Assembly (NCBI GenBank): GCA_902805555.1
Contig: CADCSY010000027.1
Coordinates: forward strand, 1-64,000
Direction: 5' to 3'
Source of the DNA: an uncultured Acidimicrobiales bacterium
Lineage (GTDB): Bacteria; Actinomycetota; Acidimicrobiia; Acidimicrobiales; CADCSY01
Length of the DNA stretch: 64,000 nucleotides
Part shown: piece by piece, positions 8,842-13,830 of the stretch
How positions within the stretch are numbered: position 1 is the stretch's first letter
Layout: each line of letters begins with the position of its first letter
Made by a program: the position numbers and the translations under genes
The notes under the pieces: generated by a model
Told to the model about the DNA's origin: nothing
Database searches by the model: none
Seen by the model: the letters and a program-made list of their open reading frames with translations, nothing else

Positions 8842-10914
8842 TCAGGGGCGCCGCCAGAGGACGAGGGGGAGGACCGGCCCCGAACCTGCGGATCGCAGGG
8901 CCTCACCGGCCACCGTCATGGTCCAGCCCGACGCCCAGGTGTCGTCCACCACCAGGACGGGACCCGGCGGGAGCCCGTCGGTGTCCGCCACGAAGGCGTC
9001 GACCACGTTGGTGCACTGCCGCCAGGAGTTGGCCATGAGCCGCTGGGGAGGGTCGTCGGGCCTCGACCGCCGGAGCGCCTCGACGAGCGGCAGGTGGCCG
9101 AGCGCTGCCAGCTGCTCGGCCATGGACCGCACGAGGACGGGGTGGCCCCGGCTCGGGATCCACGTGATGCTGGTCGGCCGCTCCACCCACGGCCACCGCT
9201 TCAACACCGCGGCCAGCCCCTGGAGCAGCTCGTCGCCCAGGGGTCCGTCCTCCTCGAGCGCAGCGGTGACCACCGGGCCCCAACCGGGATCGTCGGCGAA
9301 GGCCAGCGCCCGCCCGGTGTCGACCTGCAGGTGGGGCTTGATGTTGCCGCGTCGCACCTCCACCCCTCGGGGCCACTGCTTGCGCGGCTCCAGCACGACG
9401 TCGGCACCTCGCAGGTGGGCCAGCGCGGCTGCCGTGCGGGCCGCGTCCGGAGGACGGGCGGCAGCCGAGCCGGTGCAGGAGTCGCACCGGCCGCAGTCCT
9501 GGGAGCCCGGGTCGTCGAGGGCGTCTCGCAGGAACCGCATGCGGCACCCCGTCGTGGTCGCGTAGGCGCGCATGGCGACCTGCTCCGCCTTGCGGTGCTG
9601 GTCGACCAGCGCCAGGCGCTCCTCGTCGTAGGCCCAGGGCTCGGTCGTGCGCACCCAGCCGGATCCCTGGCGCTCGACCGCGCCCTCGACGTCGAGGACC
9701 TTGAGCAGCGCCTCCAACCGGCCTCGCCGCAGGTTGACCACCTCCTCGAGGGCGGGCACGGTCACCGGCCCGTCGGCCTCGATCGCCCGCACCACGCGCT
9801 CCACCAGGTCGCGGGGCGGGAAGGCGGTGGCGTCGAAGTAGGCCCAGATGGCGCTGTCCTCCGCCGCCGGGAGCAGCACCGCTCTGGCGGTGGCGATGGC
9901 CCGCCCGGCCCGGCCCACCTGCTGGTAGTAGGCGATCGGGCTCGACGGTGAGCCGAGGTGGATCACGAACGCCAGGTCCGGCTTGTCGTAGCCCATGCCC
10001 AGCGCGGAGGTGGCGACGACCGCACGCAGCCGGTTGGCGGCGAGATCGGCCTCCACCTGCTCTCGCTGCTCGGGTGGCGTGTCACCGCTGTAGGCCGCGA
10101 CCGCGAGCCCCTGGGAGGCGAGGAAGGTCGCCACCCGCTCGACCTCGGCCACCGTGAGGCAGTAGACGATGCCTGCGCCGGGCTCGGCCGAGATCTCCTC
10201 CGCCAGCCAGGCGAGGCGCTCGGCGGTGGTGGGCAGTGGCACGACGGCGAGGCGCAGGCTCTCCCGATCGAGTGTGCCCCGCAGCGTCAGGGTGGTCGAC
10301 CCGATCTGGGCGGCGACGTCGGCCGTGACCCGCTCGTTGGCCGTGGCGGTGGTGGCGAGCACCGGCACGCCCGGTCCGAGGGACGCCAGGACCGTGGCGA
10401 TGCGGCGGTAGTCGGGTCGGAAGTCGTGGCCCCAGTCCGAGATGCAGTGGGCCTCGTCGATCACCAGCATGCCGACGGCGGCGCTGAGGCGGGGGAGCAC
10501 CGACGTGCGGAAGGAGGGGTTGTTGAGCCGCTCGGGGGAGATCAGCAGGACGTCGACGGCGCCCGCTGCGAGCTCGTCCTCGATCTCGCGCCACGCGTCG
10601 GCGTTGGTGGAGTTGATCGTGCGCGCCGCGATGCCCATGCGTGCCGCCGCGGCCACCTGGTCGCGCATGAGTGCGAGCAGGGGCGAGACGACCAGGGTTG
10701 GACCCGCCCCCTCGTCGCGCAGGAGGCGGGTGGCGATCCAGTAGACCGCCGACTTGCCCCAACCGGTCCGCTGCACGACGAGCACCCGGGCCCGGTCGAC
10801 CACGAGCGCCTCGATGGCGCGCAGCTGGTCGGCCCGCAGGACCGCCTCGGGGCCGGCCAGGTCGGCCAGCAGCTGGGCGGCGCGGTCGGCGAGCGGGGGG
10901 GCACCGGTGGTCAC
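8842..10914 (-). CDS. RecQ-family DEAD-box helicase with C-terminal phosphoribosyltransferase-like domain
   Basis: RTGWGKSAVYW, VIDEAHCISDWGHDFRPDY, ATTATAN, QQVGRAGR, CGRCDSC; C-terminal VLVVDDTWASGWTMTVAGEALRSAG resembles a PRPP-binding loop. Start GTG 10914. Confidence 0.9.
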   Translation of the reverse strand: MTTGAPPLADRAAQLLADLAGPEAVLRADQLRAIEALVVDRARVLVVQRTGWGKSAVYWIATRLLRDEGAGPTLVVSPLLALMRDQVAAAARMGIAARTINSTNADAWREIEDELAAGAVDVLLISPERLNNPSFRTSVLPRLSAAVGMLVIDEAHCISDWGHDFRPDYRRIATVLASLGPGVPVLATTATANERVTADVAAQIGSTTLTLRGTLDRESLRLAVVPLPTTAERLAWLAEEISAEPGAGIVYCLTVAEVERVATFLASQGLAVAAYSGDTPPEQREQVEADLAANRLRAVVATSALGMGYDKPDLAFVIHLGSPSSPIAYYQQVGRAGRAIATARAVLLPAAEDSAIWAYFDATAFPPRDLVERVVRAIEADGPVTVPALEEVVNLRRGRLEALLKVLDVEGAVERQGSGWVRTTEPWAYDEERLALVDQHRKAEQVAMRAYATTTGCRMRFLRDALDDPGSQDCGRCDSCTGSAAARPPDAARTAAALAHLRGADVVLEPRKQWPRGVEVRRGNIKPHLQVDTGRALAFADDPGWGPVVTAALEEDGPLGDELLQGLAAVLKRWPWVERPTSITWIPSRGHPVLVRSMAEQLAALGHLPLVEALRRSRPDDPPQRLMANSWRQCTNVVDAFVADTDGLPPGPVLVVDDTWASGWTMTVAGEALRSAGSGPVLPLVLWRRP

Positions 10915-10931
10915 CGGCCCACGATGGCAGA

Positions 10932-11063
10932 GCGGTGGGACACCGCTGGGTGCGGGGGCGGTGGGACACCGCTGGGTGCGGGGGCGGTGGGACACCGCTG
11001 GGGTGCGGGGGCGGTGGGACACCGCTGGGTGCGGGGCGGTGGGACACCCCTGTCGGGTGCGGG
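10932..11063. repeat. 5-copy tandem repeat, period 25-27 bp, each intact unit carrying a short inverted repeat
   Basis: Units at 10932, 10958, 10984, 11011, 11036: GCGGTGGGACACCGCTGGGTGCGGGG; GCGGTG-GGA-CACCGC is a perfect inverted repeat; last unit degenerate (GCGGTGGGACACCCCTGTCGGGTGCGGG). Confidence 0.9.
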
Positions 11064-12758
<1,695 letters not shown>

Positions 12759-12840
12759 CGGCGCCCTGTACCCGTCTACGCTCCCCTCGACCATCGTCGG
12801 CGGACCACGCTGCGATCGCCCCATCCCGAGGAGCCACCCA

Positions 12841-13830
12841 GTGAACAGCCCCGTCCGCGTCGCCGTCACCGGAGCCGCCGGCCAGATCGGCTACAGCCTC
12901 CTGTTCCGCCTCGCAGCCGGGGACCTGCTCGGGCCGGACCAGCCGGTGATCCTCCAGATGCTCGAGATCACGCCTGCGCTGCAGGGCCTCGAGGGCGTCG
13001 CCATGGAGCTCGACGACTGCGCCTTCCCGCTCCTGGCCGGCAGCGTCCGCACCGACGACGCCGAGGTCGCGTTCGCCGACGCCGACATCGCCTTCCTCGT
13101 CGGCTCCCGCCCCCGCAGCAAGGGCATGGAGCGGGCCGACCTGCTCGAGGCCAACGGCGCCATCTTCACCGTGCAGGGCAAGGCCCTGGCAGCAGCGGCC
13201 CGTCCCGACGTCAAGGTCCTGGTGGTGGGGAACCCCGCCAACACGAACGCCCTCATCGCCATGAGCAACGCCTCCGGCCTCGATCCCCGCCGGTTCACGG
13301 CGATGACCCGCCTCGACCACAACCGGGCCACGGCCCAGGTGGCGCACAAGGCCGGCGTCCACCAGAGCGACGTCACCAACATGACGATCTGGGGCAACCA
13401 CTCGGCGACGCAGTACCCCGACGTGTTCCACGCCCAGGTCGACGGCCGCAACGCAGCCGAGCGGATCGACGACCAGGCGTGGATCGAGCAGGACTTCATC
13501 CCCACCGTCCAGCAGCGGGGCGCCGCCATCATCGAGGCCCGGGGCAGCTCGTCGGCTGCATCGGCTGCGTCGGCGGCCATCGACCACGTGCGCGACTGGG
13601 TCAAGGGCACCCCCGACGGGCAGTGGGTCTCCATGGCCGTGCCCAGCGACGGCTCCTACGGCGTCCCCGAGGGCATCATCTCGTCGTTCCCCGTCGACTG
13701 CGAGGACGGCGACTGGGAGATCGTCCAGGGCCTCGGCATCGACGACTTCTCCCGGACCAGGATCGACGCGTCGGCCGGCGAGCTCGTCGAGGAGCGGGAC
13801 ACCGTGCAGGGCCTGGGCCTCCTGGGCTGA
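12841..13830 (+). CDS. mdh: malate dehydrogenase
   Basis: [31 protein letters not shown]...[11 protein letters not shown]...TRLDHNRA...[14 protein letters not shown] 12841. Confidence 0.96.

Follow-up and report, generated by a model that had tools for sequence, protein, structure and literature searches.

The tandem hairpin repeats that separate two RecQ-family helicase genes in the 64 kb window (the whole stretch of DNA analyzed here) are very probably amplified, tandem copies of a -26 promoter element of the PafBC type (RecA-independent, RecA-NDp) that belongs to the downstream gene, recQ-B. The gene-proximal copy has the architecture of a DNA-damage promoter that recurs elsewhere in the same genome and throughout the phylum, and from this conservation and architecture recQ-B is predicted to be damage-inducible through the proximal box. 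An odd hairpin array thereby becomes an interpretable promoter, and recQ-B, uvrB, radA and others are predicted to take part in a RecA-independent damage response of an uncharacterized actinobacterial lineage.

The existence of a tandem hairpin array between two RecQ genes, as described in the initial annotation, was confirmed by TRF and, for the flanking genes, by Pfam and NCBIfam (Table 1). TRF reported 4.7 copies of a 26-bp period with 95% matches and a score of 219, and the runner-up array in the window scored 69. The box-to-box spacing within the array (26, 26, 27 and 25) was the same as the unit lengths given originally, and unit 1 has the stated 7-bp arms (AGCGGTG-GGA-CACCGCT). As recQ-A and recQ-B are both encoded on the minus strand, the array has to be read on that strand, on which every unit carries TGTCCCACC. 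Read in this direction, the distal end reads GACAGGGG-TGTCCCACCGCCCC..., the next three units are CAGCGG-TGTCCCACCGCCCCCGCACC, and the gene-proximal end is CAGCGG-TGTCCCACCGCTCTGC-CATCGT-GGGCCG-GTG. All five boxes are identical, whereas spacers and flanks differ. In the fifth, promoter-distal copy one dyad arm is lost (GGGG for GCGG) but GGTGGGACACC is retained, a weak hint that the box rather than the hairpin may be the conserved part. Because the copies are non-identical and the array spans just 121 bp, its invention during assembly, a concern raised at the outset, is unlikely, and a collapse of copies is possible.

Table 1 Features of the array and its flanking genes in the window
Feature	Position	Strand	Basis
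Whole tandem array, 26-bp unit, 121 bp	10932..11052	-	TRF
recQ-B, RecQ-family helicase, 690 aa	8842..10914	-	Pfam DEAD, Helicase_C, weak RecQ_Zn_bind; NCBIfam TIGR00614 over cut-off
recQ-A, RecQ-family helicase, upstream of recQ-B	11064..12869	-	Pfam, NCBIfam
recQ-B GTG start, 6 nt past the -10, predicted leaderless	10912..10914	-	Own-genome and ortholog spacing
-10-like hexamer CATCGT, 8 nt past the 9-nt box	10921..10926	-	Sequence; TGTCNCACCN8ANNNT match
Proximal PafBC/RecA-NDp-type box GTGTCCCAC (within TGTCCCACC), putative -26 element of recQ-B promoter	10935..10943	-	Matrix, orthologs
Second box TGTCCCACC, unit 2, no -10	10960..10968	-	Matrix: box 13.0 bits, -10 part -1.5
Third box TGTCCCACC, unit 3, no -10	10986..10994	-	Matrix
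Fourth box TGTCCCACC, unit 4, no -10	11013..11021	-	Matrix
Fifth, most distal box TGTCCCACC, intact, no -10, dyad arm broken	11038..11046	-	Matrix

The gap between the recQ-A stop (11064) and the recQ-B GTG start (10914) is 149 bp. The array lies in this gap but is not free-floating there, since its last copy abuts recQ-B and is a component of its promoter. In mycobacteria, the RecA-NDp consensus (P1) is tTGTCRgtg-8 nt-TannnT (PMC5656591), and TGTCGG, TGTCAG and TGTCAC followed by 10N-TAnnnT have been described as variants in M. tuberculosis (PMC8151990). The proximal copy resembles such promoters of the recA P1 type in its TGTC core, its 8-nt spacing and its position just upstream of a start codon, as well as in the DNA-repair targets and the presence of pafBC in the genome; it differs in the box TGTCCCACC, in the -10 CATCGT and in the number of boxes (five instead of one). 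The TGTC core is present in all five copies, whereas the canonical 8-nt distance to a hexamer is found in the proximal copy only. After TTGTC, the array box has C instead of R and CAC instead of GTG, which lowers but does not exclude its membership because the consensus is degenerate; TGTC[ACG]CAC is the form at most other sites of this genome. Compared with TAnnnT, CATCGT retains A2 and the final T6 and lacks T1, which is also absent at several other own-genome sites. A start codon at +6/+7 is common to most of these sites and to the recQ-B orthologs. No LexA box was found at the recQ-B promoter and no sigma-70 promoter match at the array.

We then considered the same genome for further sites of this kind. 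The pattern TGTCNSACN8TANNNT had seven matches versus none in the reversed control, and the relaxed pattern TGTCNCACCN8ANNNT had 17 (array included) versus three, with a start codon 6-8 nt downstream at most sites. The genes behind them encode UvrB, RadA, an SbcD-like calcineurin-type phosphoesterase, AlkA-like, RmuC-like and DUF222-like proteins and a DUF559 protein; the names uvrB, AlkA-like, RmuC-like and DUF222-like were assigned by reading the sequences. In the product of radA, a gene likewise identified by sequence, Pfam recognized a KaiC-type ATPase, a LapB zinc ribbon and a Lon_C-type domain, whereas neither the AlkA-like protein nor the scanned DUF222-like fragment had a Pfam match. 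The array's own word TGTCCCACC also occurs ahead of the AlkA-like glycosylase gene (named by eye). A 22-position matrix built from 14 own-genome sites, all of them outside the window, ranked the proximal copy first among all positions on both strands of the window (13.98 bits); three further array copies took the second to fourth ranks (11.44), and the next window site scored 9.2.

A candidate regulator is also encoded in this genome, in which two proteins matched the HTH_PafC family over cut-off. The C120 locus has a Pup-ligase-like pafA and, 1-2 kb downstream with one further gene in between, pafB-pafC, a layout close to the known pafA-pafBC neighborhood (PMC5656591). A second, separate pafB-pafC pair lies at C85 (L202 and L203 denote the C120 and C85 loci). 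PafBC, for which single-stranded DNA is the activator, associates with RNA polymerase-sigma A at a -26 motif of the promoter (PMC11804915). By analogy, DNA damage would generate single-stranded DNA to which PafBC binds, at the proximal box this ssDNA-bound PafBC would join RNA polymerase-sigma A, and a leaderless recQ-B mRNA would be started from this promoter. In M. smegmatis, a RecQ, MSMEG_5935, which may or may not be the ortholog of recQ-B, was 1.9-fold lower without pafBC (PMC5656591).

The distribution of the motif in other genomes indicated to which gene it belongs. Enough upstream sequence was available for 107 recQ-B orthologs, of which 70 had a TGTC-box, the spacing, a -10-like hexamer and a start codon near the aligned start (0.7 expected from shuffles), and about a third had no recognizable motif at the aligned start. 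Streptomyces recQ-B promoters, for example TTGTCAGTGCCATCGGGTTGCAT-GGGGGC-ATG, come close to the published consensus; the closest named relatives of recQ-B itself are from Acidimicrobiia. A RecQ gene adjoins recQ-B in only one of 110 loci, that of the present genome, and recQ-A (40% identical to recQ-B) is not adjacent to the box in other genomes. Thus, the box goes with recQ-B and not with the pair, because a single-copy box tracks recQ-B across the phylum while the pair occurs here only. A link of the array to the helicase pair was considered and rejected on this adjacency. An amplified or tandem second box of the same kind was seen in none of the recQ-B orthologs examined. Upstream TGTC words were present in seven of them and were mostly TTGTCCACAG, which is DnaA-box-like; in the Streptomyces loci L085, L051, L057, L090 and L113, TTGTCCACAG (CTGTCCACAG in L090) precedes the PafBC-type box by ∼30-35 bp. 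As a separate observation, the C-terminus of recQ-B (8842-9200 of the window, minus strand) contains VLVVDDTWASGWTM, which resembles the PRPP loop of phosphoribosyltransferases. Matches were no more than weak, both to Pribosyltran (E 0.013) and to adenine phosphoribosyltransferase, and recQ-B could possibly be a RecQ-phosphoribosyltransferase fusion.

The repeats might act through structure, that is, as a cruciform, a G-rich structure or a hairpin array serving as helicase substrate or attenuator, which was in part proposed initially; we regard this as improbable. The 155-nt strand did fold more stably than shuffled sequences (z -4.2 as RNA and -3.0 as DNA) and a single hairpin reached -9.6 kcal/mol, but this stability arises because a short dyad is repeated, and at the orthologs the box is accompanied by neither tandem hairpins nor a second recQ. 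The same observation, with the pair confined to this genome, speaks against a repeat resolved by the helicases themselves. In addition, the array contains no canonical G4 (four G3+ tracts with loops of 1-7; one appears only if a loop of 8 is allowed), no intrinsic terminator (G+C hairpin followed by a T run) was found at it, and no Rfam family matched it. The suggested RNA attenuator is further unsupported since a leaderless start would put the array outside the recQ-B transcript.

Even less credible is an iteron-like or generic dispersed repeat (replication iterons or REP/BIME-like elements), although the array shares with replication iterons short direct repeats near a gene, here spaced about 2.5 helical turns apart. 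The unit is confined to one genomic site: the 2.9 Mb assembly contains exactly four occurrences of GCGGTGGGACACCGC, all within the array (none in the reversed control), matches with one mismatch are as frequent across the genome as those of the reversed pattern, and the array's pair of words is absent from 11 family relatives. Its neighbors are the recQ genes and a Lon-like gene (named by eye), and no replication initiator or plasmid gene was seen alongside. Unlike iterons, the repeats contain a promoter box. A binding-site array was nevertheless the closest of the three options offered by the initial annotation, with a promoter/activator element in place of a replication iteron.

With the array read as an amplified PafBC-type promoter element, the role of the four extra copies has to be considered separately. 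According to the matrix, they have a full box (13.0 bits) without a -10, and are therefore probably slippage duplicates that are unable to start transcription and most likely neutral or weakly modulating. They would have been generated by strand slippage, with the small dyad helping; slippage, already suspected from the length differences, is still their probable source. It has been reported that PafBC fails to bind promoter dsDNA by itself and associates only with polymerase that already occupies a PafBC promoter (PMC11804915); hence, neutral slippage copies are the default reading. In contrast, several PafBC-responsive elements might raise the local occupancy of activator and polymerase, so that copy number tunes the induction of recQ-B. 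Five identical boxes among variable spacers and flanks would fit such a function, which we consider unlikely: the upstream units lack a -10, no array was found at any recQ-B ortholog, and the identity of the boxes may be due to recent duplication rather than selection. As PafBC works together with polymerase at promoters that have a -10, the boxes without a -10 provide a clean natural test of whether an upstream PafBC element has any effect.

Small arrays that arose independently at unrelated genes also favor functional extra boxes. Three 16-bp box units precede a dgt-like gene (L172), and at least three 13-bp units precede a MazG-like gene (L196), with decayed copies further upstream; looser double boxes lie in front of radA (L177) and a LysM gene (L170), the latter with a LexA-like box upstream (all four genes named by eye). 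The dgt-like and MazG-like products both resemble nucleotide-pool enzymes. The L172 and L196 arrays resemble the recQ array in having in-register, head-to-tail boxes of which only the last has a -10 and a start, and differ in their genes, periods and smaller copy numbers. Because the periods differ (26, 16 and 13), there is no helical phasing in common, which weakens a shared function. Double boxes overall were not clearly commoner than chance. They appeared enriched (27 rows versus 7 in the reversed control), but about 24 distinct cases in 247 genomes compare with ∼17 calculated from single-site density alone (417 versus about 91 single sites, summed over 61 genomes), and a general enrichment, considered at first, is not claimed. 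It is more doubtful still that tandem PafBC-type arrays are a recurrent, slippage-evolvable device of Actinomycetota in which the number of -26 elements sets how strongly, or at what threshold, damage induces single genes, the recQ array being the largest example seen. No published description of small tandem boxes at PafBC-type promoters was found in the literature searched.

A different arrangement was observed in another genome of the same class (G157), in which a multicopy HNH-endonuclease family (DUF222/13E12-like by eye; L200, L201 and ∼30 further places) has a near-identical promoter, TGTCACACCCCTGTTTTATAATCGAACATATGTTCG, consisting of a PafBC-type box and a -10. A LexA-like palindrome, CGAACATATGTTCG, spans the start codon, which suggests that this dispersed family may be under double damage control.
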